The notes under the pieces: generated by a model
Databases searched by the model: none
Seen by the model: only the letters and a program-made list of their open reading frames with translations
Told to the model about the DNA's origin: nothing
Assembly (NCBI RefSeq): GCF_003259375.1
Contig: NZ_QLLN01000002.1
Span: 682,001-746,000 of the forward strand
Length of the DNA stretch: 64,000 nt
Direction: 5' to 3'
Origin: Arenibacter echinorum
GTDB lineage: Bacteria; Bacteroidota; Bacteroidia; Flavobacteriales; Flavobacteriaceae
Shown: in pieces, positions 17,247 through 33,784 of the stretch
How the letters are laid out: every line of letters starts with the position of its first letter
Position numbering within the stretch: the stretch's first letter is position 1
Program-made: the position numbers and the translations under genes

Positions 17247-20200
17247 ATGAAAAAGCTTATTCTCCCCCTTTTATTATTTTATTCCTTTTTTGTGCTTTCG
17301 CAGAAAGAAGAGGATGGCCTTCAATTGGGAAATATCCCTATAGAAAATTATAATCAAAAACAATATTCGGCACATCATCAAAACTGGTTTATTACCCAAG
17401 ATCAAACGGGTTTTATTTATGCAGCCAATGGCGAAGGCATACTGGAATTTGATGGCGCCTCATGGAGATTGATCGCTTTTCCTGGCTTAAGGGCAGTACG
17501 GACCGTAGTCGTTGATCAGAACAATGTAAAATGGGTTGGGGGAGACAGGGAATTGGGCTATTTGGCTCCTGACTCCTTAGGAACATTAAAATATAAGTCA
17601 ATAAAGGAAAAGATTCCGGAATCCCATCCCTTAACGGCAAATATATGGCAGATCTTTCTAGAAGGGGACCGTGTTATTTTTGCATCGGACAATACACTTT
17701 ATAGTTTTAAAAACGGCTTATTTAAGGTGATATCACATCCAGGGACTGGTGCTATTTACAGGGAATATCAGGTCCATGGAAAAGTGTATGTCAGTATTAT
17801 AGGCGAGGGGATGTTCTTCCTAAAAGGGGATGAGTTGGAACTAATGCCAGGAGGTGAATTTTTCAAAAATGTCAGGGCGACGGTTGCCCTTCCTTTTGGA
17901 AAGGACTCCGTACTTTTTGTTAGTAAAGGCGCAGGGATGTACCTGTACAATGGGACAACCATAACTAAAATGTCCAATGAAATTGAGCCTTATCTAGACG
18001 AAAATCTTCTGTATGCGGGGCAAAGATTAACCAGGTCAACCTATGCATTCGCTACCCTTAGAGGGGGTGTAATAGTTATGGATGATAAGGGCAAACATAT
18101 CAGGAATATTACTGAAAATGACGGTATTGCCAACAATCAGGTCCATGCCATGACCGTGGATAGAGAGGGCGCCCTTTGGCTGGCACATCAAACAGGCATT
18201 TCCAAAGTAGCACTTCAGCTTCCCTATACCTATTACGATAATCGAAATGGACTTGAGGGTACTGTTTCCAGTATTGTCAAACATAAAGGCAGGTTATATG
18301 TAGGCACATATAGCGGACTTTATGTGTTCGATGGCCAGATTCGGTCCAATCAGCCTAAATTTCAAAAGATTGATGGGATTACATCTGGTTGTTTCTCCTT
18401 GCTCTCTAGGGAAGGGGAACTTTTTGCCGCTTCGGCAAATGGGGTTTTTACAATATCGGAAAAAGGGGTTCTTCAAGTAAGTAATTTGCCTGGATGCAGG
18501 GCCTTGGGCCTTTCAAAATTGAATTCCGATAGAATTTTTATTGGACACCTGCACGGATTGTCCAGTATTAGATATATTGGCGGCGAATGGCTGGCAGAAA
18601 ATGATTTAGGGCAAATAAAAGATGATATATTCTCTATAACCCCCGATGAAAATGGAGATCTTTGGTTGGGTACATCCCTTAGCCCTATTCTTAAAGTTGA
18701 ATTTCAGGGCTCAGAAAATTCGAATTCTGATCTTGATATTGAAAATCTCTCGGTAGAACGATACACCGAAGGAATACCAGAGGGCTCTACTAATGTTTGG
18801 AGGGTTGACGAAGAATTATTTGTGACCACCGATGGAGTAGGTGGACCCTTGTATAAGTTGGATCCAAGCTCTAAAGTCTTTCTTCCTGAAAAGGAATTTG
18901 GAAAAAAGTTTGGTCTGGATTCCCTATATATTTATCCTCGGGCCTACCAAAATAAAGGACAATATATTTTACTGGAATCCAAACCGGTACAAGGAAAGGT
19001 TTTCAGATTTACGGCTTCCATAAATGGTAATGGAACGTTTGATGTCCAAAGATTTTATGATGAAGCTATAAGAAGTACCACTGACACCCATCTTTTTTGG
19101 GAGGATGAAAATCACATTTGGTCCGGGGGAGAAAGTATGTACAAGTATGATTTAAATAACAAATATAATTTTAAAGACCTTTTTCATACCTATGTTCGCA
19201 AAGTTACGGTTGGAAATGATTCCATAATCTATGGTGGGGATCCATCGATTCATCCTAATACAGTTCTTAATTATTCCAATTTTGGGATAAGGTTTGAATT
19301 CGCGTCCCTAACAAGTCAGCCTGAGGCCAACACCTATCAATATAACCTATTGGGTTTTGACGGGAGATGGTCCGAATGGTCCTATGAAAAGCAAAAAGAT
19401 TACACCAATCTCCCAGAAGGGGATTACAGCTTCCTGGTCAGATCGCGGAATATTTATGGAGATATAGGTCAAGTGAATACTTTCGATTTTATTATACTCC
19501 CTCCTTGGTATAGGACCTGGTGGGCCTATCTACTTTATTTGGTTCTTTTTGTAGGCTTTCTTTGGATAATTTTGCAATTACGCTCCCGCCAATTAAAGGT
19601 TCGTAACGAGGCTTTGGAGAAACTGATAGAAGTAAGGACAGCTGAAGTTCAACATCAGGCCAACCAGCTAAAAATACAGGCTGAGAAATTACTGGATTTG
19701 GACAGGGCAAAATCGCGTTTCTTTGCCAATATTTCACATGAATTCCGTACACCACTTACCCTTATAAAAGGGCCTATAGAGCAGTTGGAACAGAATTTTG
19801 ACCAAAAATTAAGTATGGAAACGGTAAGGATGATCCGTAGGAATGCCAATCGCCTGCTAAACATGGTCAACCAACTCTTGGACCTGTCTAAAATTGACGA
19901 AGGAAGTTTAAAACTGTCACCCACCGAGGGGGACGTATTCAAATGTCTTAGGGCGGCAGTCTCGTCCTTTAATTCTCATGCAGCTCAACGCAATATTGAC
20001 TATAGGGTAAGAATACCAACTAATTTGCTTTGGGCTTCATTTGATCGTGATAAACTGGAAAACATAGTGTACAACCTTTTGGGAAATGCCTTTAAATTTT
20101 CTGATAATGGTTCAGAAATTTCCTTTGTTGCAGATTATTATGCAAATAATCTGCAAATACAGGTATCCGATACCGGGTTGGGAATTCCAGCAGAAAGGTT

Positions 20201-21224
20201 GCCATTTATTTTTGATCGATTTTATCAGGTCGATAATAGCGCCACCAAGGAGAAGGAAGGTTCTGGAATTGGACTTTCCCTTTCCAAAGATCTTATTGAC
20301 CTAATGGAGGGTACCATAACCGTTTCAAGTGAAGAAAAAAAAGGTACTTTCTTTACGGTTCTGATACCATTACAGGAAATAAAAACAAGGTCGAATAAAG
20401 TCGAATTGACCGAGGCTCCTAAGGTGATTTATCCAAATATGCCCAATATATATGAACTAATTCCTAGTGATCACAGGAATCTCCCAAAAATATTGCTTAT
20501 AGAGGATAATAGCGATATGAGACAATTTATAAAAGGGCAGCTTATTGGGACTTATAAGGTAATTGAAGCGGTTAATGGTGAAGCGGGTTTGCAGTATGCA
20601 CTAAAGGATCCGCCAGATTTGATTGTTACAGATCTTATGATGCCGCGGATGGATGGTATTGAACTTTGCAGGAATTTAAAGACAGATTTGCATACCAGTC
20701 ATATACCTGTGATTATGCTTACGGCGAAGGCCGGAAGGGAAAACAAAATTGAAGGTTTGGAAACTGGCGCGGACGATTACCTTACCAAACCTTTTGATGG
20801 GAAGGAACTTTTGGTAAGGATTAAGAATCTAATAGAGCAGCGAAAATATCTTAGGGAGCTTTTTAGCAATAAGGATATAGGGATAGATCCCAAAAAAGTA
20901 ACGGTCACTTCAGTAGATCAAAAATTTTTGGAAGAGGTCCTGGCCTTGTTGGAGGATAAATTTTCAGAACCAGATTTTGGAGTTCTGGAAATGCAAGTTG
21001 CGCTGGCCATGAGCAAGACTCAATTGCATAGAAAAATTAAGGCCCTTACCAATGAGTCGCCAGGGGAACTGCTGCGCAACTTCAGGTTGAAAAGGGCAGC
21101 CCAATTGTTGCGCCAAAAAGTGGATAGTGTTACTCAGATAGCCTATATGGTTGGCTTTAATAACCTCTCTTATTTTGCCAAATGTTTTAAAGGATTATAT
21201 GGTGTTCCGCCTTCGGCCTTTTAA
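17247..21224 (+). CDS. Hybrid two-component system sensor/regulator (HTCS-type)
   Basis: A 1325-residue single-protein signalling system. A signal peptide leads into a periplasmic sensor of two-component-regulator propeller repeats (to about 690), then a Y_Y_Y domain (about 690-755) and one membrane helix (about 759-781). The cytoplasmic part has the H-box ISHEFRTPLT with His831, the ATPase N, G1 and G2 boxes (NLLGNAFKFS, VSDTGLGIP, GSGIGLSLS), a receiver with phospho-acceptor Asp1129 in VTDLMMPRMDG, and a C-terminal AraC helix-turn-helix. Such proteins usually sense oligosaccharides and control a neighbouring polysaccharide locus. No SusC/SusD pair lies beside it here; its nearest downstream genes encode two lipoproteins. 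Confidence 0.93.
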   Translation: MKKLILPLLLFYSFFVLSQKEEDGLQLGNIPIENYNQKQYSAHHQNWFITQDQTGFIYAANGEGILEFDGASWRLIAFPGLRAVRTVVVDQNNVKWVGGDRELGYLAPDSLGTLKYKSIKEKIPESHPLTANIWQIFLEGDRVIFASDNTLYSFKNGLFKVISHPGTGAIYREYQVHGKVYVSIIGEGMFFLKGDELELMPGGEFFKNVRATVALPFGKDSVLFVSKGAGMYLYNGTTITKMSNEIEPYLDENLLYAGQRLTRSTYAFATLRGGVIVMDDKGKHIRNITENDGIANNQVHAMTVDREGALWLAHQTGISKVALQLPYTYYDNRNGLEGTVSSIVKHKGRLYVGTYSGLYVFDGQIRSNQPKFQKIDGITSGCFSLLSREGELFAASANGVFTISEKGVLQVSNLPGCRALGLSKLNSDRIFIGHLHGLSSIRYIGGEWLAENDLGQIKDDIFSITPDENGDLWLGTSLSPILKVEFQGSENSNSDLDIENLSVERYTEGIPEGSTNVWRVDEELFVTTDGVGGPLYKLDPSSKVFLPEKEFGKKFGLDSLYIYPRAYQNKGQYILLESKPVQGKVFRFTASINGNGTFDVQRFYDEAIRSTTDTHLFWEDENHIWSGGESMYKYDLNNKYNFKDLFHTYVRKVTVGNDSIIYGGDPSIHPNTVLNYSNFGIRFEFASLTSQPEANTYQYNLLGFDGRWSEWSYEKQKDYTNLPEGDYSFLVRSRNIYGDIGQVNTFDFIILPPWYRTWWAYLLYLVLFVGFLWIILQLRSRQLKVRNEALEKLIEVRTAEVQHQANQLKIQAEKLLDLDRAKSRFFANISHEFRTPLTLIKGPIEQLEQNFDQKLSMETVRMIRRNANRLLNMVNQLLDLSKIDEGSLKLSPTEGDVFKCLRAAVSSFNSHAAQRNIDYRVRIPTNLLWASFDRDKLENIVYNLLGNAFKFSDNGSEISFVADYYANNLQIQVSDTGLGIPAERLPFIFDRFYQVDNSATKEKEGSGIGLSLSKDLIDLMEGTITVSSEEKKGTFFTVLIPLQEIKTRSNKVELTEAPKVIYPNMPNIYELIPSDHRNLPKILLIEDNSDMRQFIKGQLIGTYKVIEAVNGEAGLQYALKDPPDLIVTDLMMPRMDGIELCRNLKTDLHTSHIPVIMLTAKAGRENKIEGLETGADDYLTKPFDGKELLVRIKNLIEQRKYLRELFSNKDIGIDPKKVTVTSVDQKFLEEVLALLEDKFSEPDFGVLEMQVALAMSKTQLHRKIKALTNESPGELLRNFRLKRAAQLLRQKVDSVTQIAYMVGFNNLSYFAKCFKGLYGVPPSAF

Positions 21225-21491
21225 ATGCTTTGGCCAGCTTATAATTGTCTTGTATTGGTATTCATAATCTTTCCGTGTTTCCATCGAAATACAATTCGTC
21301 CCCTTCACTAACAATACAAGCTCTTTTAACGGATTATGAGTCTCCTCTTCATTAAAAGCAACAATTATAGGTTGGAACTATGTTGTTAGAATATGGAACA
21401 TTTATGTTAGTTAGCCAATAATGGTTGTAATAGCTTTGGATAGAACAAGAAATATTCCCCCTCAAGTTTGTTTAACTCTAAAACTGTTATT

Positions 21492-22478
21492 ATGAAAACA
21501 ACAAGAGCGTTTGGGACATTTGTATTTACAAAAATTGTTAAATGGATAAAATCTATATGGATTTTACAGTTGATATTGGTAATCATTTTAACTTGTACGG
21601 CCCTTAGCTGTATTAAATCTGATACCGATTTTCCAGTGGATCTCACCGGCAAGATAAAGGGGACTGTAAAGGATGAACTAGGCAATCCATATCCCAAAAC
21701 TAAGGTATCATTTACCAATGGATCTGATACAGTAGAGATGGTTACTGATATGAAGGGTAATTTTTCTGGGGAAACCAAGGATTTAGGCCAGTACAGTGTC
21801 AGTATTATTCCTCCATTATCCACAGAATTGGTAACGGCCATTCCAATTTCGGTTAATCTTCGGTATCATCAAGTGGCGAAAGTAGATTTTGTCGTTAAAC
21901 CTACGCATGTCAGTGCCCATCTAAACTTTGGGAGCGTTCAATTACTGGAGGAAATTGTTGACAAGGAGGGTAATACCCCAACAGATCCCAATGAGCCCCT
22001 TTTTGCAGCGAATATATTTGATGATCCCATTGGTCTGCTCACACCAATAATGGCTCCGGACGATCATCAGATAACTCTATCAGAATTTCAAACCGCGAAG
22101 GGGAATTTGGTGGTGCACTGTAATGGCAATTCATCTAAGGTAGAGGTAAATCTTGAGGGAATGATTCCCAACGGAACTTATACCTTTTGGTTGGCCTATC
22201 TTAATAAAACCAGATCTGTAGGAGAGCAAATCGATTTTATGAACGATTTTGTGAATTTCAACAATCCTCCTATAGGTCCTGATACGGGTACAGACAATAT
22301 TGCCGTTGCAGATGAGAACGGAGTGCTAAAAGTTACTTTGGAACACGGATCCTGTATCCTAACAGATGAAGCGGCGCTGGTTATACCTGTGTTATACCAT
22401 ATCAATGGAAAAACCTTCGGAGGTGGACATGTCCCCGACCCCGAGGAAATGGTACATATGCTCGTTTATTTTCAATAG
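21492..22478 (+). CDS. Lipoprotein with carboxypeptidase-like regulatory domain
   Basis: A 328-residue predicted lipoprotein. I choose the ATG at 21492 over a TTG at 21468. A long hydrophobic leader ends in TALSC, with Cys40 as the lipidation site. Residues about 48-115 resemble a carboxypeptidase regulatory-like (transthyretin-fold) domain: KIKGTVKDELGNPYPKTKVS and DMKGNFSG. The remaining 200 residues form a beta-rich domain I do not recognise (YTFWLAYLN, ENGVLKVTLEHGSC). It is followed after 63 nt by a second small lipoprotein, probably in one transcript. An exact TAnnTTTG box (TAGCTTTG, 21431-21438) lies upstream. The function is unknown; it may be a surface binding protein controlled by the preceding regulator. 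Confidence 0.75.
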   Translation: MKTTRAFGTFVFTKIVKWIKSIWILQLILVIILTCTALSCIKSDTDFPVDLTGKIKGTVKDELGNPYPKTKVSFTNGSDTVEMVTDMKGNFSGETKDLGQYSVSIIPPLSTELVTAIPISVNLRYHQVAKVDFVVKPTHVSAHLNFGSVQLLEEIVDKEGNTPTDPNEPLFAANIFDDPIGLLTPIMAPDDHQITLSEFQTAKGNLVVHCNGNSSKVEVNLEGMIPNGTYTFWLAYLNKTRSVGEQIDFMNDFVNFNNPPIGPDTGTDNIAVADENGVLKVTLEHGSCILTDEAALVIPVLYHINGKTFGGGHVPDPEEMVHMLVYFQ

Positions 22479-22541
22479 AATTGGTTTTGGCGGTGGAAAA
22501 TGTTCCCCAATAAATTAGGTAACAATTAAAATAAAGAAATC

Positions 22542-22991
22542 ATGAAAACAAGATGTAATCCAATTAACGGGATAATCGGAATTGTAATAATATTGAGCTT
22601 TCTAACTGCCATGAATGGCTGTAGCAAAAGTGATGATGGGGGCTCAGATGCCGCTATCAATAAAGTATCCATAAAAAGTAAGACACCCAATACCCCAGCT
22701 TCCTTAAAATTTGATGAAGAGGTAATTATTATTTATGATTATGAGATTGCGGATCCAAATGGTGGTAGAATATGGGTTCAGCCTTATACCAACGGGAGTA
22801 TTTCCCCCAAGTATAGCTATACTTCATCCCCATTACTTACTGGAAAGGGTACAAGAACGGTTATGATTTCTATTACTTCGGGCACCGATGCCGTAATAGT
22901 GGATCAATTAATGGTCGAAATTGCATCAGCGGATGGCAAACAAACCGTATCGGAATCCTTTGAGACTGTTAACTATACATTTTCGAATTAG
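22542..22991 (+). CDS. Small predicted lipoprotein
   Basis: A 149-residue protein with a signal peptide and lipobox (AMNGC, Cys27), then an acidic linker (SKSDDGG) and a beta-rich domain of about 110 residues. No family is recognised. It sits directly behind the larger lipoprotein gene and before a strong terminator, so the two probably form one unit. Confidence 0.72.
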   Translation: MKTRCNPINGIIGIVIILSFLTAMNGCSKSDDGGSDAAINKVSIKSKTPNTPASLKFDEEVIIIYDYEIADPNGGRIWVQPYTNGSISPKYSYTSSPLLTGKGTRTVMISITSGTDAVIVDQLMVEIASADGKQTVSESFETVNYTFSN

Positions 22992-23508: not shown

Positions 23509-24333
23509 ATGGAAAAGAGCATGTTGGGGCAGAATATCAACGACGAAGGAAGTCAAGATGAAAATCACATTTCCTATAGGCCTGAGATTCGTATAATAGC
23601 TGAGGATTATGAAATTCCACAGTTAAATAGGAAAAGGAGAATATCGGTGCTCCTTCCCAATAACTATGAGTCCAGCGCAAAAAATTATCCAGTATTGTAT
23701 TTACACGATGGTCAAAATTTATTCGATGGTGGCGGCCCTTATGGTAACTGGGCCATTGATGAAAAGCTTGCGGATTTGGCAAGAAAGGGAATGGGAGATG
23801 TTATTGTGGTGGCCATAGACCATGCAGAGGAGGAAAGGGTATTGGAATTTTCACCCTTTAAGGAAACCAAATGGGGTATAGGGGACGGTAAAAAGTACCT
23901 TAAGTTCTTGGTGGAAACCCTAAAACCCCATATCGACAAAAATTTTAGGACCTTAAAAGAACGGGAATTTACCGGAGTTGGAGGGAGTTCTATGGGGGGG
24001 CTTATAAGTATTTATGCAGGTTTAAGGTATCCTTCAGTGTTTGGAAAATTGATGATTTTCTCTCCTTCGCTCTGGATTACCCCTAAGATCTATTTCGATG
24101 CTATAGCATTTCATCAACCTTATTCTACAGATATCTATTTATATGCTGGTGGGGCTGAAAGTGTAAATATGGTGGGGAATGTGAAAAGATTGAAACAAGT
24201 TCTTGAAGATAAGAACAAAGAGGGTGCTATGGTGAACATTGAACTGCATATTGATCCCCAAGGTAAACATGAGGAATGGTTTTGGAGTCAAGAATTCCCG
24301 GCAGCCATGGAATTTCTTTATTTTAGGAATTAA
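23509..24333 (+). CDS. Alpha/beta-hydrolase (esterase D / enterochelin esterase-like)
   Basis: A 274-residue cytoplasmic alpha/beta hydrolase. Visible features are YPVLYLHDGQNLFD (oxyanion-side strand), the nucleophile elbow GGSSMGGLIS, and a late HEEWFWSQEFP segment holding the likely catalytic histidine. It is similar in type to esterase D/Fes proteins, which cleave ester bonds of siderophores or acylated metabolites. It lies 15 nt upstream of leucyl aminopeptidase, so the two are probably co-transcribed. A second, different esterase lies at 32 kb in the facing operon. The substrate is unknown. Confidence 0.85.
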   Translation: MEKSMLGQNINDEGSQDENHISYRPEIRIIAEDYEIPQLNRKRRISVLLPNNYESSAKNYPVLYLHDGQNLFDGGGPYGNWAIDEKLADLARKGMGDVIVVAIDHAEEERVLEFSPFKETKWGIGDGKKYLKFLVETLKPHIDKNFRTLKEREFTGVGGSSMGGLISIYAGLRYPSVFGKLMIFSPSLWITPKIYFDAIAFHQPYSTDIYLYAGGAESVNMVGNVKRLKQVLEDKNKEGAMVNIELHIDPQGKHEEWFWSQEFPAAMEFLYFRN

Positions 24334-24348
24334 ATTTAAAACACTTTT

Positions 24349-25845
24349 ATGATCAGCATAACAAAGGATAGAGATCTTTTATTGGAAACCCTTTTAGTAC
24401 CGTTGGTACAAGGGGAAAACTTGGAGTCGGACATTGCTAATTTAGCTGAGGAACTAAAGCTCCCCAAGACACTGTTAACGGAACAAATAAAGGCCGAAAA
24501 AAAGGAAGTCTCCTTGTTTTATCCCGTTGCCCATAAAAGTATAAAGAGGGTATACTGTTTGGGCTTGGGAACAAAACCAACCCTTAAGATGGTGATAGAT
24601 GCTTTTAAGCGCTTTCTTCAAATGGAAGCGGCCAAATTGCCTTCCAATTTGAGCATTGATATAAGCAACGGAAATTTTGACCCTGAATTTATTCCAGTAT
24701 TGACTGAAGGTCTGGTTAGTGGATTGATATTAGGGACTTACAAAAAGGGATTGTACCAAACATCCAATGTTCCTGAACATAAATGGGATTCCGAACAATT
24801 GAAGTTGCAATTCTTTGTTAAGGACAATTTTGATGCTAAAGTAAAAATAGCAGCAGACAAAGGCAGGGCCATAGCGGAAACCCAGCTTAAGATACTAAGA
24901 TTGGTAAACGCCCCTAGCAATAAACTTACCCCTATTAAAATGGGTCAGGAAGCAGTTATGTCCGGTAAGGAATTTGGTTATAAGGTGGAAGTACACGACG
25001 AAAAGGCCATTGAAAAATTGGGATTATTTGCACTCATGGCAGTTGGCCAGGGGAGTGAAACACCCGCCAGATTTATTGTAATGGAATATAAGCCAAAAGT
25101 AACTGGCACAATACTACCCAAAGTGGGCTTGATCGGCAAGGGAGTTACTTTTGACACAGGGGGCTTGTCCATCAAGGGTTCCTCCAATATGCATTATATG
25201 AAAAGTGATATGGGCGGTGCGGCAGCGGTTCTTGGAACCATTGAGTTGACCGCCAAACTAAAATTGCCCGTACATCTTATTGTTGTAATTCCCACCACTG
25301 AAAACTGTGTTGATGCCAAAGCTTTAAAACCAGGAGATGTTATTAGGTCTTACGCGGAAAAAACAATCGAGATTATTGATACCGATGCAGAAGGACGCTT
25401 AATATTGGCAGACGGAATTGCCTATCTAAATAAAAATTACAGTCCGGATGTAATGATAGACGTAGCTACCCTGACCGGAAGTTGTGTGCAAACCTTGGGC
25501 TATGAGGCAGGCGGGTTATTTACGAACAATGACGATCTTGCCCTTGGACTGATAACTGCCGGGGACCGCTGCGGGGAACGTCTGTGGCGACTTCCATTAT
25601 GGGATTCCTATGAGGGAGATATAAAATCCGATATTGCGGATGTGAAGAATTATAGCGGCAAGCCTATTGCAGGAGCCATCAGTGCTGCAAAATTTTTGGA
25701 ATTTTTCTCTGATAAGCATGCCAATTGGGCCCACTTGGATATTGCTGGGGTGGCCTTTGGGGATGCGGAATTTTATACCCAGAAAACGGCAACTGCATTT
25801 GGGGTTAGATTGCTTACGGATTTTATTGCCGGTTTGGAGAAATAG
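24349..25845 (+). CDS. pepA: Leucyl aminopeptidase family protein (M17)
   Basis: A 498-residue two-metal aminopeptidase that removes N-terminal residues from peptides. The metal-binding and catalytic signatures are present: GKGVTFDTGGLSIK with the conserved lysine, and DTDAEGRL, which has Asp where many family members have Asn. The N-terminal non-catalytic domain is complete. It follows the esterase gene closely and precedes an ATP-grasp gene by 175 nt. In this setting it may either be a general peptidase or trim products of the neighbouring peptide-bond-forming enzymes. Confidence 0.92.
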   Translation: MISITKDRDLLLETLLVPLVQGENLESDIANLAEELKLPKTLLTEQIKAEKKEVSLFYPVAHKSIKRVYCLGLGTKPTLKMVIDAFKRFLQMEAAKLPSNLSIDISNGNFDPEFIPVLTEGLVSGLILGTYKKGLYQTSNVPEHKWDSEQLKLQFFVKDNFDAKVKIAADKGRAIAETQLKILRLVNAPSNKLTPIKMGQEAVMSGKEFGYKVEVHDEKAIEKLGLFALMAVGQGSETPARFIVMEYKPKVTGTILPKVGLIGKGVTFDTGGLSIKGSSNMHYMKSDMGGAAAVLGTIELTAKLKLPVHLIVVIPTTENCVDAKALKPGDVIRSYAEKTIEIIDTDAEGRLILADGIAYLNKNYSPDVMIDVATLTGSCVQTLGYEAGGLFTNNDDLALGLITAGDRCGERLWRLPLWDSYEGDIKSDIADVKNYSGKPIAGAISAAKFLEFFSDKHANWAHLDIAGVAFGDAEFYTQKTATAFGVRLLTDFIAGLEK

Positions 25846-26020
25846 GCTCAAATAGGCTCATAAATTCCTCTAACACCCTTTTGGATTTTGTTTGCCGGAA
25901 AATGGGTAATAAAGGGAACAAGAATCTCTCTAAACAGTATTGAAAGTTTTTTTATAGTGTTTCTAACGCTGATTGGGGATTAATAGGTATTTTACAGTTA
26001 ATAAGTTATACCTCACGACC

Positions 26021-27220
26021 ATGACAGGAAAAGCCGATCAAACCACCTTTTTGTGTATTAGCAGTTTTTTTAAGGGAGAAGATTTTTTAAGATCTTGTAA
26101 GGCTTTGGGCAACAAGGTGTTACTTATCACCTCCAAGGGATTGGAACACAAAAAGTGGCCTCGCGAATCTATCGATGAAATTTTCTACATGCAGGAAAAG
26201 CGGGAAGGGGTATGGAATATGGACGATTTAATTTCTGGCCTCGCTTTTTTAATGCGTAATCAAAAAATAGACAGGATCGTAGCCTTGGACGATTTTGATG
26301 TGGAGAAAGCCACCTTGGTAAGGGAACATTTTAGAATTCCCGGTATGGGACAAACCACAGGTAGGTATTTTAGGGATAAATTGGCTATGAGAATGAAAGC
26401 GGCGGAGTCCAATATTCCCGTTCCGGCATTCACCGCATTGTTCAACAATAGTGATATAGAAGAATATACAAGGAGGGTAGCTGCGCCATGGTTAATTAAG
26501 CCCAGATCGGAAGCCTCTGCAACGGGGATACGTAAAATATTCTCGAATGAAGAACTATGGGCAGTGTTGGAGTCTTTGGGCGATCGTAGACATGAGTACC
26601 TATTGGAGAAATTTGCTCCGGGCGACGTGTATCACGTAGATTCTTTATCAGTGGATGGTAAGATTGTTTTTACACAAGCTTCCCAATATTTAAGTACGCC
26701 TATGGATGTGGCACACGGTCACGGTATCTTTAGATCCATCACACTTAAAATGGATTCTCCAGATGCCTTGGGCTTAATGGAAATTAATGAAGAAGTCCTA
26801 AAGGCCTTCGGGATGCGATTTAGCGCCTCGCACAGCGAGTATATAAAATCTCGGGACACTGGGAAGTTTTGTTTTCTGGAAACGGCCTCAAGGGTCGGTG
26901 GGGCCCATTTGGCAGAAATGGTGTCCTTTGCTTCTGGAATTAATTTGTGGGCAGAATGGGCAGTGATCGAAGATGCCATGGCAAAGGGAAAACCTTATAA
27001 GCTACCTGCGGTAAAAAACCAATATGCGGGTATTGTGGTTTCCTTATGTCGTTTTCAATACCCTGACTATTCCTGTTTTACAGATCAGGAAATATGCTGG
27101 CAATTACAAAAGGAGTACCATATAGGCCATATTGTACAATCGGAGAGTCAGGAACGGGTGCTGGAATTGCTAAACGAGCATACCAGACGTATCCAAATCG
27201 ACTTTCACGCAAGTACCTGA
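26021..27220 (+). CDS. ATP-grasp domain protein (amidoligase-type)
   Basis: A 399-residue ATP-grasp enzyme, expected to join a carboxylate to an amine or similar nucleophile through an acyl phosphate. An N-terminal Rossmann-like preATP-grasp region (to about 110) ends in DDFDVEKATLVREHF. The ATP-grasp core begins with RDKLAMRMKAAESNIPVP, and later has WLIKPRSEASATGI and the metal-binding segment CFLETASRVGGAH. I choose the ATG at 26021 rather than a TTG at 25973. It converges on the five-gene amidoligase operon with a 46-nt gap. The substrate is unknown; the carbamoyl-phosphate-synthase-like layout suggests an amino acid or peptide ligase. Confidence 0.85.
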   Translation: MTGKADQTTFLCISSFFKGEDFLRSCKALGNKVLLITSKGLEHKKWPRESIDEIFYMQEKREGVWNMDDLISGLAFLMRNQKIDRIVALDDFDVEKATLVREHFRIPGMGQTTGRYFRDKLAMRMKAAESNIPVPAFTALFNNSDIEEYTRRVAAPWLIKPRSEASATGIRKIFSNEELWAVLESLGDRRHEYLLEKFAPGDVYHVDSLSVDGKIVFTQASQYLSTPMDVAHGHGIFRSITLKMDSPDALGLMEINEEVLKAFGMRFSASHSEYIKSRDTGKFCFLETASRVGGAHLAEMVSFASGINLWAEWAVIEDAMAKGKPYKLPAVKNQYAGIVVSLCRFQYPDYSCFTDQEICWQLQKEYHIGHIVQSESQERVLELLNEHTRRIQIDFHAST

Positions 27221-27266
27221 TATGTCTTGGGAAGAGCTCTAAGGAGGTGAAAAATTTGAATGTATT

Positions 27267-28460
27267 CTAGTCCTCAAAGAAACCTACGCTGGCGCCCACC
27301 CAGTCCTTATCCTTGTTAAAGCGTACCCCGACCATTTCCCCTTTGCTTATACGTACCAAATTGTTGACTACCCTTGCTTTTTTTTCGCCTTTTTCCCATA
27401 TCATCAACATCCTGATTTCACACTTTGCCAGACCTGTTGGGGTCTTTATTGCCGGGGCATAAACTACTTTCTTCTGTAAGATGTAGTTTTCTCTATCTTG
27501 TACAGCATCAAGATCTTGTTTGGTGACATTGATGAGTACCCCCGATCCGGCAAAGGAAAATAATGGTTTTAACACATAATTTTCCAGATCCTCGGGATAC
27601 TTTACCAGTTGGTGCAAAAAATGACATAGGGGCACATAGGAACTGTTGATCAAAGGCATGGTAAATTTGCTTATCCTAAAAAACCAATTGGGATGTCCTA
27701 TCCATTCCACGTTGTATTCCTTAGTAAAATCGAATTGCCGTTTAAGATCGTCCCTTTTAAAGAGCTCATCAAAAATTACGCGATTATATATCCGTCGTAC
27801 TTGGATTTTCAGGTCATTTTTATCCGTATAAAAAACATTCTTTCCTTCGGTGATTAATTCGCTTATACAAACTACTTTTATTCCTAAATGGTGGGCCGTT
27901 GCCAAAAAATCTATTTGGGTTGCTTGTTTGTGGGGTTCAATTTCTAAAAGAATAACATTTTCGGGGGAACAGTCGCCCACAATTATCTCCCTCAATTTTT
28001 CTACATATTCTGAAGAGGATATATCGTTTAAATGATGATAGTTGGATGGAATATCAAAGTACTTCCTATATCCTTTGGCCATGAGTTCCTGAAAAAAATA
28101 TAGCGTGGGAAAGCCTTGTACTTCTACCATTTGTGGGATTAATTTTCCTTTTTCATCCAAACATATTCCAAAATCCATTTGAAGAAAAGTAGTGTGCTCA
28201 TCTTCCCCTGGGACCAATCGGGATGCATCTTGAAGGGCATTATTGGTCAGCTCTTTAAAATCGGGCTTGCAGATAACACTGTTCACCTCATCGCAAGCCT
28301 CCAATAAACTATGCTTTAGGTATTTTGGAATAAAGATCGGGGTCTCGGCAATGCGAAAAGGGGGTTTGTGGTCATAGGTGTAACGTATAGATTCTAAAAA
28401 TGCCGTATATTTTTCATCCGTGAATTCGGCATTATATTGCTTACGAAGATGTTCTACCAT
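27267..28460 (-). CDS. Divergent ATP-grasp-like protein (possible circularly permuted type)
   Basis: A 397-residue protein, last gene of a five-gene minus-strand operon. I do not recognise a named family. The C-terminal third carries ATP-grasp-like elements: VLKPLFSFAGSGV (nucleotide-binding loop), YILQKKV, EIRMLMIW, and a final RISKGEMVG segment ending in VGASVGFF, close in style to circularly permuted ATP-grasp and glutathionylspermidine-synthetase-like proteins. The N-terminal half includes MDFGICLDEKG and VEVQGFPTLYF, where acidic residues could bind metal. No signal peptide. The gap to the amidotransferase gene is 11 nt. The ATP-grasp assignment is my reading of motifs and needs a profile search. 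Confidence 0.7.
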   Translation of the reverse strand: MVEHLRKQYNAEFTDEKYTAFLESIRYTYDHKPPFRIAETPIFIPKYLKHSLLEACDEVNSVICKPDFKELTNNALQDASRLVPGEDEHTTFLQMDFGICLDEKGKLIPQMVEVQGFPTLYFFQELMAKGYRKYFDIPSNYHHLNDISSSEYVEKLREIIVGDCSPENVILLEIEPHKQATQIDFLATAHHLGIKVVCISELITEGKNVFYTDKNDLKIQVRRIYNRVIFDELFKRDDLKRQFDFTKEYNVEWIGHPNWFFRISKFTMPLINSSYVPLCHFLHQLVKYPEDLENYVLKPLFSFAGSGVLINVTKQDLDAVQDRENYILQKKVVYAPAIKTPTGLAKCEIRMLMIWEKGEKKARVVNNLVRISKGEMVGVRFNKDKDWVGASVGFFED

Positions 28461-28471
28461 GAAAACCTATG

Positions 28472-29308
28472 TTATGAGAGTTGTTTGGATAATCCAATCT
28501 TTTTAATAGCATTGTCAATAAATCCGGGTATTATGGAATTGTAGGTAGATTCCAAATTATCCGTATCCCTTATATGGGTCATCATATTGTCATATTTTTT
28601 TTTCCCGTAGGTGGCAACTACCTTCTCTTCGTTTTCTGGTTTGGCAAAATGTGCTTCCATACTGACAGGTTCGGCCTCGGGATGAAATTGTACGCCAACA
28701 AATTCTTCAGAAAAACGTACCGCCATAATGGCCCTCTCATATTCCACATGTGTCCTGATTTTCTCCAGAGCCAATATTTTTGCGCCTTTTTCTTCAAAAA
28801 CCTTCAATCGTGGTTGAATAAGTTGCCAATCCCTGGAATCAACTGCAAAGAACGGATCGGGTAATTTGGAAAACAACTCATCGGCCTTACCATGTTTGGT
28901 CTTATGGATGGGTAGAACCCCGAAAGATGGTGATTTTCGTTTGGTTATGTCTCCTAGTCCAAAATGATGGCATACCATCTGATAGGAATGGCAAATAAAG
29001 AAAATGTATTTTTTGGGATAGTCGCCGTTTGCATTGTGTTCCCATAATTGGTCTATGAGGGAATAATACTTTTTATCCCAGATACCGTCTCCTTCCAAGG
29101 GATTTCCTGGCCCTCCCGAAGATATGTAGATATCATAGCTGGTATCGGGAACTTCATTCTTGGTCCTAACGTCAAAAAATTGGTAATCGGCTACTGCGCT
29201 GAATTTATCCAATATTTCCCGTATACATCTCAGGCCTTGATTTGGAATTCCATTATAAAGGTCTAAAACGGCAATCTTTTTTTTTCTATCCAACATTTTC
29301 TTGTTCAT
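28472..29308 (-). CDS. Class I glutamine amidotransferase-like protein
   Basis: A 278-residue GATase1-fold protein. The nucleophile elbow reads FFICHSYQM, with Cys in place but Ser in the position usually held by Gly. The partner histidine and glutamate are in VQFHPEAEP. SGGPGNPLEGDG is the usual oxyanion-loop region. Family members release ammonia from glutamine, or hydrolyse gamma-glutamyl bonds. The ATG at 29308 directly abuts the stop of the GCS2 gene (TAAATG), so translation is probably coupled. It lies between two ligase genes, so it could supply ammonia or cleave a gamma-glutamyl product. Annotation pipelines may call it GMP synthase; it lacks the synthase domain. Confidence 0.85.
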   Translation of the reverse strand: MNKKMLDRKKKIAVLDLYNGIPNQGLRCIREILDKFSAVADYQFFDVRTKNEVPDTSYDIYISSGGPGNPLEGDGIWDKKYYSLIDQLWEHNANGDYPKKYIFFICHSYQMVCHHFGLGDITKRKSPSFGVLPIHKTKHGKADELFSKLPDPFFAVDSRDWQLIQPRLKVFEEKGAKILALEKIRTHVEYERAIMAVRFSEEFVGVQFHPEAEPVSMEAHFAKPENEEKVVATYGKKKYDNMMTHIRDTDNLESTYNSIIPGFIDNAIKKIGLSKQLS

Positions 29309-30403
29309 TTAAATCCCTGCAACCGTCTCCTTCAAAATAAAATCGACCACATCATTAAGGTTTTTGGTTTTTTCAAAAACGGCCAATTGTCTGTCCGCCC
29401 CGGTCCCTTCATTCAATATTTTATGGATTTTATTGATTTCATCCCTGCTTCCAAGTTCATCTACCACATCATCTACAAATTCCAGCAGCTCCAAAATTAA
29501 TTCTTTTGTTGGAACTTCTATAGATTTTCCAAAGTCGATCATCTTGCCCTCAATCCCATATCTTGAGGCCCTCCATTTATTCTCATTGATCAATGCCCTT
29601 TTGTAAATAATAAAGTTGAGGTTGCTTCTTCTTAAAATATAAAGTTTGGCCACCAAAGCCTGAATCAATGCCGTTATGGCGACTGTTTCATCTACGGTCA
29701 AAGGAACATCACAGATCCTAAATTCTATAGTCGGGTAAAAAGGGTGTACCCTTACATCCCACCATATTTTTTTGGCGTTGTCAATGCACTTTGTCTGTAC
29801 CAAGAGATCAACATAGCGCTCGTATTCCCCTGCACCCGTAAAGAAATCGGGAATACCGGTACGCGGAAATTTATCGAACACTTTGGTGCGGAAAGATTTA
29901 AAACCCGTGTTCCTTCCTTCCCAAAAAGGGGAGTTGGTAGATAGGGCGTAAATATGGGGCAAAAAGTAGCGGACGGAATTATAGATGTGTATAGCCATTT
30001 CCCTGTCTTCAATGCCCACGTGTACATGAAGTCCAAAAATAAGGTTGGACCTGGCAGCATCCTGCAATTCCTGCACAATTTCATCATATCTCGGGTGCAC
30101 GGTTATCAATTGCTTTTCCCATTCCGAGAATGGGTGTGTACCTGCCGCTGCTATTCGAAGGCCTAGGCCGGAGGCAACCTCCGATATTGTTTTTCGCAAA
30201 TGCGTTACTTGTGAGCGCACCTCCTTAATGTCCTTGCAAATGACCGTACCCACTTCAACCACGGCCTGGTGCATTTCTGCCTTTACTTGTCCTTCCAAAA
30301 TCTCGTCGGCAATTTCTACAATTTTTTGCTCATGTGAAGTCAGTTCACGGGTATTGGGATCTATTACTTGATATTCTTCTTCTACTCCTAATGTAAAATC
30401 CAT
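29309..30403 (-). CDS. Carboxylate-amine ligase, GCS2 (YbdK) family
   Basis: A 364-residue enzyme of the glutamate-cysteine ligase type 2 superfamily (glutamine-synthetase fold), which makes an amide bond with ATP. The N-terminus has LGVEEEYQVID with the metal-binding glutamates, and the conserved HVHVGIEDREMAI and TIEFRICDVPLTVDE segments follow. It is the middle gene of the amidoligase operon, 36 nt after the tailed ATP-grasp gene and directly abutting the amidotransferase. E. coli YbdK has weak glutamate-cysteine ligase activity, but the natural substrate of the family is mostly unknown. Confidence 0.92.
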   Translation of the reverse strand: MDFTLGVEEEYQVIDPNTRELTSHEQKIVEIADEILEGQVKAEMHQAVVEVGTVICKDIKEVRSQVTHLRKTISEVASGLGLRIAAAGTHPFSEWEKQLITVHPRYDEIVQELQDAARSNLIFGLHVHVGIEDREMAIHIYNSVRYFLPHIYALSTNSPFWEGRNTGFKSFRTKVFDKFPRTGIPDFFTGAGEYERYVDLLVQTKCIDNAKKIWWDVRVHPFYPTIEFRICDVPLTVDETVAITALIQALVAKLYILRRSNLNFIIYKRALINENKWRASRYGIEGKMIDFGKSIEVPTKELILELLEFVDDVVDELGSRDEINKIHKILNEGTGADRQLAVFEKTKNLNDVVDFILKETVAGI

Positions 30404-30439
30404 TGGTCTCCAGGTATTACAGTTTGGGCATTGTCAAAA

Positions 30440-31603
30440 TTATTTTGACTTGCGTTTGGTTGTTATGGCCTTTTTGACCGGTTTTTTGGGGGCGGCCGCT
30501 GTTGTTTTGGCCTTCGTTGTCGTTGTTTTTTTAGCTGCAACTGTCTTGGTGGTTGCTACAGCCTTTTTTGCTTTGGTCGGCGTTGTTTTTGCCGCAGGGG
30601 TTTTGACTGCCGGGGTAGCTTTTTTTGCAGGAGTTTTTTTGACTGCTGGTTTTTTTGTGGTCGGGGCAACCGCATTCTTGACAAATGTTCCCCAAGTAAG
30701 GTTCATTTGACCTGGTTTGTGCTCCTGTGCCTTTTTTATGGCCATATTTGCCGCGGTCTCCACGACCCATTCAAAATTTTCCTGGCCAACGGAATTAATA
30801 TCGGCATCCGGAGCCGGATTGCAAAAATCTATTGCGTAGGGAATACCGTCCCTTACCGCGAATTCTACGGTGTTAAAATCATACCCCAAAGCTGCATTGA
30901 GTTTTATGGTGTAGTCTTTAACGGTATCCAGGAGTTTTTTGCTCAGCGTAGGGCCATCATGTACATATCTCAGGTGATGTGGGTTGCGCGGCTCGTATTG
31001 CATAATACGTACTTCATCCCCGCCAAGGCAATAGCAACGGAAATATTCGTTAAAGACGATTTCCTCTTGCAACATCATTATTAGTTGTCCGGTTTCGCTG
31101 TGACTCTTAAAAAACTCATCGGCATTGTTGAGTTTATAGACATTTTTCCATCCACCTCCGGCAAAGGGTTTCATATAGGCGGGAAAACCGATATGTTCAA
31201 AAATACCATCCCAGTCCATGGGATACTTTAAATTTCGGAACGAATTTTCAGTGGTATCATCCGGTCTGTCTTTTGAAGGCAGTAGCACTGTTTTTGGAAC
31301 CGGAACTCCAGTTTTTATGGCCAGCGCATTATTAAAAAATTTTTCATCTGCACTCCACCAAAAAGGATTGTTGAGAACTGCGGTACCCGATATGGCTGCG
31401 TTTTTTAGGTATGCCCTGTAAAAGGGAACATCTTGTGAAATGCGATCTATGATAACGGCATATTCCGTTGGGTCGGCCTGCATTACCTTATCTATCAGGA
31501 CGGCCTCGGCCATGATCCCGTTTATTTTTTTTTCGTTTATTCTATCTATAAAGGCTTGGGGAAAGGTATTTTCCTGGCCGAATAGTATTCCAATTTTTTT
31601 CAT
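30440..31603 (-). CDS. ATP-grasp protein with long Lys/Ala/Thr/Pro-rich C-terminal tail
   Basis: A 387-residue protein. The ATP-grasp part (to about 310) begins MKKIGILFGQENTFP and contains AYMKPFAGGGWKNVY (ATP loop), YFRCYCLGGDEVRIM and EFAVRDGIPYAIDFCNPAPD (metal ligands). The last 73 residues are almost only Lys, Ala, Thr, Pro and Val (for example KKTPAKKATPAVK), like histone H1 or AlgP tails. I choose the ATG at 31603; the TTG at 31663 would overlap the preceding esterase gene. It lies 20 nt after that gene. The tail may bind nucleic acid or other polyanions, or might itself be a substrate for the neighbouring ligases; both are inference. Confidence 0.87.
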   Translation of the reverse strand: MKKIGILFGQENTFPQAFIDRINEKKINGIMAEAVLIDKVMQADPTEYAVIIDRISQDVPFYRAYLKNAAISGTAVLNNPFWWSADEKFFNNALAIKTGVPVPKTVLLPSKDRPDDTTENSFRNLKYPMDWDGIFEHIGFPAYMKPFAGGGWKNVYKLNNADEFFKSHSETGQLIMMLQEEIVFNEYFRCYCLGGDEVRIMQYEPRNPHHLRYVHDGPTLSKKLLDTVKDYTIKLNAALGYDFNTVEFAVRDGIPYAIDFCNPAPDADINSVGQENFEWVVETAANMAIKKAQEHKPGQMNLTWGTFVKNAVAPTTKKPAVKKTPAKKATPAVKTPAAKTTPTKAKKAVATTKTVAAKKTTTTKAKTTAAAPKKPVKKAITTKRKSK

Positions 31604-31623
31604 ACGGTATATGGTATTAAAGT

Positions 31624-32328
31624 TTACATTAAGGATAAATAATGGGGAAACATTTCGCGCCATATAGGCCAGTCGTGACTTGCGTTGGGCCTATTGTCCA
31701 ACCAATGATCAATACCTTTATTTTTTAAAATTGCCGACATTCCGAGATTGGCACCCAAGCAAATATCATGTTCGCTGGTACCTAAAATTATTTTCATATT
31801 ATACAGTTCGGGATGATGCATATTGGGCAGGTAATCCACGGGATTATTGAAATAAACATTATCGTCGTAATAGCCATCCAATTGGTCCCTGATATCAAAT
31901 GCCCCGCTCATAGTAAAGAGGTGGCTAACCTTTTCGGGATGTCTAAAGGCAAAATTGGCGGCATGGTAGCCTCCGAAGCTACAGCCTGAAACTGCTACTT
32001 TGCCAATAGGGGATTCGTGTTGTACTTTGGCAACTACTTCCTCCAAAATCATTTTGTCGTACCAAATATGGTTTTTAACTCGGTCTGCAGGATGTATGGA
32101 TCTATTATACCAACTGTATTCGTCAATACTATCCAAGCAATATACCTTCACCTTGCCTTGTTCTATAAACCAGGAAATGGAATCGATTAAATGAAAATCC
32201 TTGCTTTCGTAATACCTCCCTCTGGTGGTAGGAAAGATTAACAAAGGATAGCCCCAATGACCATAAACCATCATTTCCATTTCCTTGCTTAGATTCGGGG
32301 AATACCATTTATGATAGTTCTCTTCCAA
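31624..32328 (-). CDS. Alpha/beta-hydrolase fold esterase, first gene of the amidoligase operon
   Basis: A 234-residue esterase. The nucleophile elbow is SGCSFGGYHA, a likely acid is in GTSEHD, and a histidine is in ASHDWPIW near the C-terminus. The N-terminus YHKWYSPNLSKEMEM is typical of this family, so I keep the TTG start at 32328, although an ATG at 32280 is possible. A -7 box lies 50 nt upstream. It leads the five-gene operon, so all five enzymes should be made together. It is distinct from the esterase at 23.5 kb. Confidence 0.85.
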   Translation of the reverse strand: MEENYHKWYSPNLSKEMEMMVYGHWGYPLLIFPTTRGRYYESKDFHLIDSISWFIEQGKVKVYCLDSIDEYSWYNRSIHPADRVKNHIWYDKMILEEVVAKVQHESPIGKVAVSGCSFGGYHAANFAFRHPEKVSHLFTMSGAFDIRDQLDGYYDDNVYFNNPVDYLPNMHHPELYNMKIILGTSEHDICLGANLGMSAILKNKGIDHWLDNRPNASHDWPIWREMFPHYLSLM

Positions 32329-32377
32329 AATGTATTTATTAATGGTTGGGGAAGTATCTCCCTGTCTTAAAGTTAGC

Positions 32378-32385
32378 CAAAATTA
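32378..32385 (-). promoter_or_regulatory. Putative -7 box of the amidoligase operon
   Basis: Read on the minus strand this is TAATTTTG, an exact -7 match, 50 nt before the TTG start of the esterase gene. No clear -33 TTG. Confidence 0.5.
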
Positions 32386-32572
32386 TGATGCCAACAAATC
32401 TGATTTAAGGAAAGATCGGCATTTATGGATGTGCCTTAAATATGTTTTTTCATAAGGGCAGGGGAAAATGTTCCAAAAGTATTGATATTCAATGCCTTTG
32501 GACTTATGTTGGAAATAGAAATTAGTATTTATTAAATGTAAATTTTTGTTTTAGAGTCAATAGCGGTGCCGC

Positions 32573-33784
32573 CTAATACTCATCCAAATGTTCCGGATAT
32601 AGAAAGTTGTTATATGGAAATCTGGTTATGTGAATGTCCCGAACTTCATCATAAACACGTTTTCTGAATTCTTCCAAATTTTCCTTGTTTAGGGCCGAAA
32701 TAAATAGGGCCCTATCACCAACGCGACGCATCCAAGTATTCTTCCACTCTTCAATAGTGAAGTGTTTATTGGTTTTTTCAGTGATCAAATCATCGTCGTC
32801 AATGGTCTTGTGTTCGTATTGATCTATTTTGTTAAAGACCATGATGGTTTTCTTATCCGAACTTTTTATTTCGGTAAGAATTTGGTTTACAGAATCTATA
32901 TGCTCTTCAAAATTTGGATGGGAAATATCAACTACATGTAATAACAGATCAGCTTCCCGTACTTCATCCAAAGTACTTTTAAAACTTTCTACCAATTGTG
33001 TGGGCAGTTTTCTAATGAATCCCACTGTATCACTCAATAAAAAGGGAAGATTGCCTATCACCACTTTCCTAACCGTAGTGTCCAGGGTAGCGAATAGTTT
33101 GTTTTCTGCAAAGACATCGCTTTTGCTAATAACGTTCATCAGGGTAGATTTGCCTACGTTGGTATACCCTACCAAAGCTACACGTACCAATGCCCCGCGA
33201 TTGCCCCTTTGGGTTTCCATTTGTTTGTCGACCTTCAATAACTTTTTCTTCAGAAGGGAAATTCGATCACGAACAATTCGTCTATCGGTTTCGATCTCCG
33301 TTTCACCGGGTCCACGCATTCCTATACCCCCTTTTTGTCGTTCCAAGTGGGTCCATAGACCTGTAAGTCTGGGAAGTAAATATTCGTATTGGGCCAGTTC
33401 CACTTGGGTGCGGGCATAACTGGTCTGTGCCCTTTGGGCAAAAATATCCAGGATTAAACTGGTACGGTCCAGGATTTTGCATTTTAATTGCCTTTCAATA
33501 TTTCGCTGTTGTCCAGGGGTAAGCTCATCATCAAAAATTACCGATCCAATGTCATTGCTTTTTACATAGGCCTCCACTTCCAACATTTTTCCGCTTCCAA
33601 TGTAGGTTTTAGGGTTGGGCAAGTCTATTCGTTGTACAAAGCGCTTACAAACCTCACCACCTGCAGTATAGGTAAGGAATTCCAGTTCATCCAAATATTC
33701 GTTTACCTTTTCCTCATTCTGGTCTTTGTTCATTACCCCTATGAGTACCGCCTTTTCATATTCTATAGTCTTCTTCTCTAGCAT
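32573..33784 (-). CDS. hflX: Ribosome-associated GTPase HflX
   Basis: A 403-residue GTPase that binds the large ribosomal subunit and helps split or rescue ribosomes. The N-terminal HflX domain includes YIGSGKMLEVEAYV and FDDELTPGQQRNIER, and a GPGETEIETDRR linker leads to the G domain: G1 GYTNVGKST, G3 DTVGFIRKLP, G4 FNKID. Length and motifs are standard. It is monocistronic and divergent from the nuclease gene, with an exact -7 box 17 nt before its ATG. Confidence 0.96.
   Translation of the reverse strand: MLEKKTIEYEKAVLIGVMNKDQNEEKVNEYLDELEFLTYTAGGEVCKRFVQRIDLPNPKTYIGSGKMLEVEAYVKSNDIGSVIFDDELTPGQQRNIERQLKCKILDRTSLILDIFAQRAQTSYARTQVELAQYEYLLPRLTGLWTHLERQKGGIGMRGPGETEIETDRRIVRDRISLLKKKLLKVDKQMETQRGNRGALVRVALVGYTNVGKSTLMNVISKSDVFAENKLFATLDTTVRKVVIGNLPFLLSDTVGFIRKLPTQLVESFKSTLDEVREADLLLHVVDISHPNFEEHIDSVNQILTEIKSSDKKTIMVFNKIDQYEHKTIDDDDLITEKTNKHFTIEEWKNTWMRRVGDRALFISALNKENLEEFRKRVYDEVRDIHITRFPYNNFLYPEHLDEY

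Follow-up and report, generated by a model that had tools for sequence, protein, structure and literature searches.

An eight-gene set of Arenibacter echinorum with four putative amide ligases, probably serving one kind of peptide-like product or protein modification

We analyzed a 64,000-nt stretch of the 5.19-Mb genome of Arenibacter echinorum (contig NZ_QLLN01000002.1, positions 682,001 to 746,000; hereafter the window), in which eight open, intact genes form two tightly spaced, convergent units (Table 1). Five of them lie on the minus strand in the transcription order est2-grasp1-gcs2-gat1-grasp2div, with gaps of 20, 36, 0, and 11 nt, and face the plus-strand trio of est1, pepA, and grasp3. 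The stretch holding all eight genes is flanked by a gene without an assigned role (15951-16883) and by hflX (32573-33784). A sequence-only reading of the window had described the same arrangement, with gaps of 0 to 36 nt, and its gene classes and coordinates were confirmed as well, through Pfam and curated profiles and, for two of the ATP-grasp proteins, through structural comparison. Many related bacteria share these genes as a set, either in fixed order or dispersed, and the encoded enzymes therefore probably assemble one type of small peptide-like molecule or carry out a protein modification.

Table 1. Positions, strands, and assignments of the eight genes and the adjoining intergenic region, with the basis of each assignment.
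Feature	Position in window	Strand	Assignment	Basis
est1	23509..24333	+	CE1-type alpha/beta-hydrolase esterase	PF00756 E=2e-28 on longer open reading frame (ORF); alignment A7
pepA	24349..25845	+	M17 leucyl aminopeptidase	PF00883 E=6.4e-111
grasp3	probably 26021..27220	+	L-amino-acid-ligase-type ATP-grasp	PDB profile search, alignment
grasp2div	27267..28460	-	glutathione-synthetase/GspS/YgiC-fold ATP-grasp ligase (modeled)	AlphaFold2 (AF2) model, Foldseek, VIA
gat1	28472..29308	-	class I glutamine-amidotransferase-like	PF00117 E=3.1e-9; alignment A3
gcs2	29309..30403	-	YbdK-type carboxylate-amine ligase	PRK13515, TIGR02050, PDB 1r8g
grasp1	30440..31603	-	RimK/LysX-like ATP-grasp, Lys/Ala/Thr-rich tail	AF2 model, structural match
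est2	31624..32328	-	small CE1-like alpha/beta-hydrolase, TTG start	PF00561/PF00756; alignment A6
hflX-est2 gap	32329..32572	-	244 nt, putative operon promoter, contains TAATTTTG	sequence

Within the window's genus, for which 18 genomes were sampled and gcs2 was used to find carriers, gcs2 occurs in 7 genomes, all of which harbor all eight genes in an identical arrangement. hflX is present in 18/18 genomes, and in 10 of the 11 gcs2-negative ones the flanking genes face each other across an empty site of 65 nt to 1.9 kb, and no match to any of the eight genes was obtained at 1e-10 in the retrieved 18-kb stretch; in the 11th, the contig ends 0.5 kb past hflX. Furthermore, the eight genes lie between both flanks in genome G009 without any other tested window gene. 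In this genus, the eight genes are gained or lost as a block.

Conservation of the neighborhood, which the sequence-only reading had proposed as a check, was assessed in 86 loci selected by grasp1, some of which end at contig ends: 80 named loci, representing the best grasp1 matches of at least 532 relatives, and six genome loci. The named loci stem from Flavobacterium, Algoriphagus, Mucilaginibacter, Dyadobacter, Pedobacter, Aureispira, Ignavibacteria, and others. The five core genes est2-grasp1-gcs2-gat1-grasp2div were found on one strand and in that order in 65 loci, and the remaining 21 contain subsets of this core with the order preserved; median intergenic gaps, taken from ORFs at their first start, range from 6 to 42 nt. 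Among the 80 named loci, gcs2 was identified in 75, est2 in 71, grasp2div in 70, and gat1 in 68, while pepA and grasp3 were found in 12 each. In two loci (L022 and L023), which represent two genomes of one genus, all eight genes are arrayed on one strand. With the complete set present in every carrier of the window's genus and the core order kept in the majority of loci, the association of these genes is not due to chance.

This association extends to genes that are not neighbors. In a sample of 395 genomes of the phylum Bacteroidota, only strong matches were kept (grasp1 in 134 of 144 matching genomes, grasp2div in 114 of 115, and grasp3 in 80 of 101), and some of the weak grasp3 matches left out lie in genomes without grasp1. 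All three genes occur in 66 genomes; grasp1 accompanies grasp2div in 110/114 genomes and accompanies grasp3 in 80/80, with 54 of the 134 grasp1 genomes lacking grasp3. A scattered, unlinked distribution had been named in advance as speaking against a common system, and such a distribution was found in part, for grasp3 in 64 of 80 genomes and for grasp2div in 47 of 110, where unlinked means located on a different contig or at a distance of over 20 kb from grasp1 and includes pairs split by contig ends. However, none of the 261 genomes without grasp1 contains a strong grasp3 match, and the scatter of grasp3 therefore does not indicate independence. When 20 dispersed loci of each gene were inspected, grasp3-pepA-est1 was found in 3 (L161, L163, L164) and grasp3-pepA in 1 (L169), while gat1 lies beside or near dispersed grasp2div in 4 (L178, L180, L191, L192). 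Taken together, gene order, presence or absence as a block, and co-occurrence even without linkage support the coherent multi-ligase system that had been proposed from the sequence.

The four ligases could be placed to different depths. The product of gcs2 reaches the curated scores for YbdK (PRK13515, 537.9 bits with a cut-off of 371; TIGR02050, 308.5 bits with a cut-off of 176.4) and matches YbdK in the PDB (1r8g, E=1.5e-53). The plus-strand protein that had been described as another ATP-grasp enzyme is of this superfamily and can be refined: in a search against the PDB, its profile (alignment A4) matches the L-amino acid ligase 4wd3 (E=1.2e-24), 3vot (1.5e-12), and BacD 3wo1 (1.2e-9), and grasp3 is, by these sequence profiles, related to the L-amino acid ligases. 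In contrast to 4wd3, BL00235, and BacD, grasp3 has genes for an M17 peptidase and an esterase as its neighbors.

The window grasp1 protein matches no Pfam family at 0.01. Its AF2 model (pLDDT 82.0) is structurally most similar to RimK (4iwx, Z 21.1, root-mean-square deviation [rmsd] 2.9, 261 residues aligned), then to LysX/ArgX (Z of about 20), and less so to Ddl-type ligases and synapsin (Z 17-18). It shares this modeled fold, and likely acyl-phosphate chemistry, with RimK, LysX, and ArgX. Unlike these enzymes, however, grasp1 forms a conserved family of its own, with 70-79% identity to the window protein in 29/29 aligned relatives drawn from the best 80 matches, and it stays far below the cut-off of rimK_fam (TIGR00768, 33.2 bits with a cut-off of 143.4). 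The Lys/Ala/Thr-rich tail of the window protein is encoded at 30440-30650; across the 86 loci, the tail comprises at least 20 residues in 43 (up to 172 aa, with 12-40% Lys plus Arg) and at most 5 residues in 36. One such tail (L059) contains a stretch that by eye resembles a helix-hairpin-helix domain.

The protein encoded by grasp2div had been called a divergent ATP-grasp-like protein. While its ATP-grasp nature was confirmed, the description can be corrected to a ligase that is confidently modeled with the glutathione-synthetase/GspS/YgiC fold (AF2 model with pLDDT 92.2 and pTM 0.90; Foldseek E 4.1e-14). In VIA comparisons, YjfC and YgiC match at Z 26.2 (rmsd 3.4, 342 aligned), and matches over the entire chain were obtained at Z 19.6-26.2 with YjfC, YgiC, GspS, eukaryotic glutathione synthetases, trypanothione synthetase, and the fungal Cp1B, far above the next structures (3k1t, Z 12.2; LysX, Z 8.4). 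The likeness in fold covers the whole length, for YgiC, YjfC, and GspS (Z 22-26, rmsd 3.3-3.9, 331-347 residues) as well as for glutathione synthetases (Z 20-24), whereas sequence identity to any of these amounts to 8-12%; furthermore, grasp2div, unlike them, sits with GCS2, a glutamine amidotransferase (GAT), and two more ATP-grasp proteins. No curated family scored above its cut-off for grasp2div. The window protein reaches 15.9 bits for GSP_synth (PF03738), with a cut-off of 29.3, and 5/46 family members match this profile at E<=0.01 (best 0.00094).

Seven loci belonging to more distant families (L134, L135, L142-L146) have, between grasp1 and gat1, a gene related to CP_ATPgrasp_2 that encodes a circularly permuted (CP) ATP-grasp protein; three of these proteins were tested against the Pfam profile and scored 31.6, 29.0, and 37.5 bits, one of them passing the cut-off of 32. 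The distribution of such genes was determined in 60 genomes, comprising all 24 with grasp1 but without grasp2div, a selection of 24 out of the 110 that contain both genes, and a selection of 12 out of the 261 that lack grasp1. A CP_ATPgrasp_2-like gene was identified in 16 of the 24 genomes lacking grasp2div, adjoining grasp1 in 16/16, and in none of the 24 chosen genomes with both genes or the 12 chosen genomes without grasp1. Mutual exclusion of this kind is expected if one enzyme has taken over the step of the other, and it is likely that one amide ligase was displaced by another here. The 16 genomes with the CP ATP-grasp gene all encode gat1, and 8 encode gcs2 (matched less strongly in G310), located on a separate contig or at a distance of 108 kb. 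Of the 24 chosen grasp2div genomes, 20 contain gcs2 and 14 contain gat1, while both genes are absent at 1e-20 from the 12 chosen genomes without grasp1. Among the other eight genomes with grasp1 but without grasp2div, G437 is unexplained, and seven look like cases of grasp1 paralogues: their matches (G066, G145, G217, G343, G413, G425, G445) lie at E 1e-63 to 1e-102 and are accompanied by none of grasp2div, grasp3, CP ATP-grasp, gcs2, and gat1. These are probably paralogues, which puts the number of genomes with the hub gene grasp1 at 127 to 134 of 395.

Of the accessory enzymes, gat1 scores 37.2 bits for PF00117 (cut-off 22.8), and its triad Cys106/His209/Glu211 is invariant in 36/36 sequences. 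Class I glutamine amidotransferases carry the nucleophile elbow G-x-C-x-G; in the gat1 alignment, the region reads [IV]-C-[HY]-[SA]-[FY]-Q, with the usual glycines lost and no Gly two positions before the Cys. With the elbow glycines lost but the triad kept, ammonia delivery and gamma-glutamyl cleavage would both be compatible with the gat1 sequence. The nucleophile motif GGSSMGG of est1 is intact (A7), and Ser117 and His218 of est2, whose PDB matches are CE1/feruloyl esterases, are invariant in 22/22 sequences (A6).

We give a probability of roughly one half (0.48) to the reading that the eight genes constitute one modular pathway making a small soluble pseudopeptide by stepwise, non-ribosomal, ATP-dependent amide bond formation. 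Structures and profiles place all four ligases near amide-forming enzymes. Between them, the encoded enzymes can make several amide bonds at the expense of ATP and cleave esters and N-terminal residues. Going by family chemistry, grasp3 would, like the L-amino acid ligases, couple two amino acids; grasp1 would convert a carboxylate to an acyl-phosphate, in the manner of RimK/LysX, and add an amino acid; GCS2 would add a gamma-glutamyl-type or similar cap, a step dispensable in some lineages; and the glutathione-synthetase/GspS-fold ligase, or the CP ATP-grasp protein in other lineages, would attach the last amine or amino acid. gat1 could supply ammonia for a terminal amide or remove a gamma-glutamyl group, and PepA and the two esterases could trim, proof-read, or recycle intermediates. 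Since grasp1 is the constant part, not only in the loci selected by it but also in the phylum counts, it should catalyze the defining step. The loss of GCS2, of the glutathione-synthetase-fold ligase along with gat1, and of grasp3, each in certain lineages, suggests that the products form a related family and are not one compound.

The pathway reading is favored by analogy with a comparable scheme, the fungal synthesis of E-64, in which stand-alone ligases add building blocks singly. In that synthesis (PMC12568646), one amino acid and one amine are added in turn by a glutathione-synthetase-fold ATP-grasp enzyme and another ligase; YgiC and YjfC are referred to there as peptidylpolyamine synthetases, and Cp1B, which shares the grasp2div fold (9cjn, Z 23.2), makes a pseudodipeptide. 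However, the oxygenase Cp1A and the amide synthetase Cp1D of that pathway are without counterpart among the eight proteins, and the bacterial ligases have different partners.

Several observations weigh against a single pathway of this kind. Although Asp96, Glu113, Lys298, and Pro299 of grasp2div are invariant in 46/46 sequences, the R-x-D and E-x-N motifs named for Cp1B are missing, with no Arg94 and with Gln115 in 46/46 (catalytic positions were matched to Cp1B by motif, not by superposition). As Gln115 replaces the usual Asn, giving E-x-Q, and no Arg stands two positions before Asp96, the substrate of grasp2div probably differs. Furthermore, the profiles of grasp2div and the CP ATP-grasp protein align weakly (hhalign probability 1.5%, E 0.034), and a common origin of the two is therefore only suggested, by the motif, by single weak Pfam matches of grasp2div members (1/46 to CP_ATPgrasp_1 and 1/46 to CP_ATPgrasp_2), and by the permuted fold. 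The dispersed grasp3 and grasp2div genes mostly lack a recognized partner in the inspected loci, and the co-occurrence counts ignore relatedness. gat1 is present in only 14/24 chosen grasp2div genomes, and gcs2 is absent from 4 of these 24 and from 8 of the 16 CP ATP-grasp genomes, a patchiness that makes one fixed product unlikely. In addition, no product, substrate, or transporter was identified, and the RimK/LysX resemblance and the Lys-rich tails of grasp1 fit protein modification equally well.

In the latter case, grasp1 would add amino acids to a protein carboxylate, and GCS2 and the glutathione-synthetase-fold ligase would extend or cap the resulting tag; PepA, the esterases, and gat1 would edit or remove it, and the Lys-rich grasp1 tail may be a docking site or the target. 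The acceptors of RimK and LysX/ArgX, the best structural matches of grasp1, are proteins, but the fold does not fix the substrate, with Ddl and synapsin close behind. Similarly, while half of the loci encode the longer, basic tails, 36/86 have next to none, and no target stands out because the commonest outside neighbor family occurs in only 20/86 loci. Weak matches to the R2K family in 6/30 grasp1 members also point towards proteins, as the R2K clade has been proposed to modify them (PMC4431377). On balance, protein modification appears unlikely to us, if a serious contender. It is distinctly improbable that the genes make or recycle a glutathione-like or polyamine-conjugated thiol or peptide in strict analogy to glutathione and glutathionylspermidine, despite the presence of GCS2 alongside ATP-grasp ligases, one with the glutathione-synthetase/GspS fold, the ability of M17 peptidases to split Cys-Gly, and two domains elsewhere in the window genome that score above the cut-off of GSH-S_ATP (PF02955). 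GCS2 reaches merely 73.7 bits for gshA_cyano (cut-off 249.05) and is absent from part of the carriers, and the bacillithiol enzyme BshA is encoded in the window genome (562.7 bits, cut-off 273.7), so that another thiol is probably made. Glutathione synthesis as known was rejected on the same gshA_cyano and BshA results, in agreement with the sequence-only reading, which had recognized neither a glutathione nor a cyanophycin pathway.

A similarly small chance falls to two separate pathways, consisting of the core five and of est1-pepA-grasp3, that are chance neighbors in some lineages. The two units lie on opposite strands in the window and are often far apart (64/80), the trio forms a module of its own in 3/20 dispersed loci, and a substantial part of the grasp1 genomes lacks grasp3; against this stand the confinement of strong grasp3 to genomes with grasp1, the one-strand eight-gene arrays of L022 and L023, and the joint gain or loss in the window's genus. 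The synthesis of a ribosomally synthesized and post-translationally modified peptide, here a graspetide, with an overlooked precursor would agree with the ligases PsnB and MdnC among the structural matches of grasp1, yet we regard it as very improbable: a precursor gene, unless encoded at a distance, would hardly fit into the 0-36 nt between the core genes of the window, the two longer gaps contain, besides gene overlaps, only ORFs of 20-41 aa, none of them precursor-like by eye, and no precursor-like family was found among the 45 commonest ORF families of at least 60 aa (shorter ORFs were not clustered). Finally, genes that by eye encode the cyanophycin synthetase CphA, cyanophycinase, and isoaspartyl peptidase adjoin the eight-gene array in L022 (12785-17465) and L023 (13701-18392). 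However, CphA is not matched in the window genome (G000) at 1e-30 or in any of the 80 named loci at 1e-10, and strong matches (E 1e-200 or better) occur in 45/395 genomes, 21 with and 24 without grasp1, a mild excess over 134/395. A general link to cyanophycin was thus rejected.

Returning to the pseudopeptide pathway, a wider claim can be put forward tentatively, with somewhat more doubt than trust: roughly one in three of the genomes sampled from the phylum would carry the hub of an uncharacterized, modular, and co-inherited non-ribosomal pseudopeptide pathway with up to four mechanistically different amide ligases, in which the glutathione-synthetase-fold and CP ATP-grasp ligases are interchangeable. 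That the genes are kept together in a genome even when dispersed points to a generally useful product or modification, and the set provides orphan enzymes of four ligase kinds that can be tested, as well as a likely natural case of ligase displacement. Bacillithiol, N-acetylglutaminylglutamine amide (NAGGN), and ergothioneine are widespread metabolites that became tractable once their ligase genes were recognized. No paper on this gene set was found in the search listings of the open-access literature. The amidoligase survey of Iyer et al. from 2009 reportedly describes linked ATP-grasp, GCS2, GAT, and peptidase genes and may mention part of the set.

Concerning gene boundaries, the promoter of the five-gene operon probably lies in the 244-nt hflX-est2 gap, where TAATTTTG fits the Bacteroidota -7 element. 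grasp1 probably starts at 31603 and not at the upstream ATG at 31663, because its homologues begin with MKKIGI. The grasp3 ORF opens at 25973, and the start at 26021 is suggested by the alignment of homologues. There is no in-frame ATG near the TTG start of est2 at 32328, and est2 of L020 likewise has a TTG at the equivalent place.

None of the eight proteins matched a PADLOC profile, which cover described defense systems, at 1e-5, and no grasp1 or gat1 match was found in plasmid records at the same threshold. Loci L136-L141 contain distant grasp1-like genes with no system partner nearby, which probably represent a separate ATP-grasp family. Next to the cluster, the window contains a hybrid sensor/regulator of 1325 aa and two small ORFs of lipoprotein-like appearance (17247-22991, named by eye); since some of these were matched beside the cluster in L014, L015, L016, and L019 but none in L018, they seem to be a separate insertion at the same site. 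A different PF00756 esterase gene is located divergently upstream of est2 in 28 of the 70 named loci whose est2 lies on the operon strand, and in two loci (L053, 8255-8980; L061, 8140-8886), another est2-like gene that has diverged (24-25% identity to window est2) was noticed upstream on the opposite strand. By eye, est1 has a CBM48-like (glycogen-binding) N-terminal extension in L022 (3715-4836), L057 (18098-19252), and L073 (19863-20993), and genes resembling those for glycogen branching enzyme and glycogen synthase lie next door in L022 and L023. Apart from the genes of the system and the PF00756 esterase, the commonest neighbor family is a gene that by eye resembles an MtaB/MiaB-type methylthiotransferase and is found in 20/86 loci (e.g., L089, 1784-3115).

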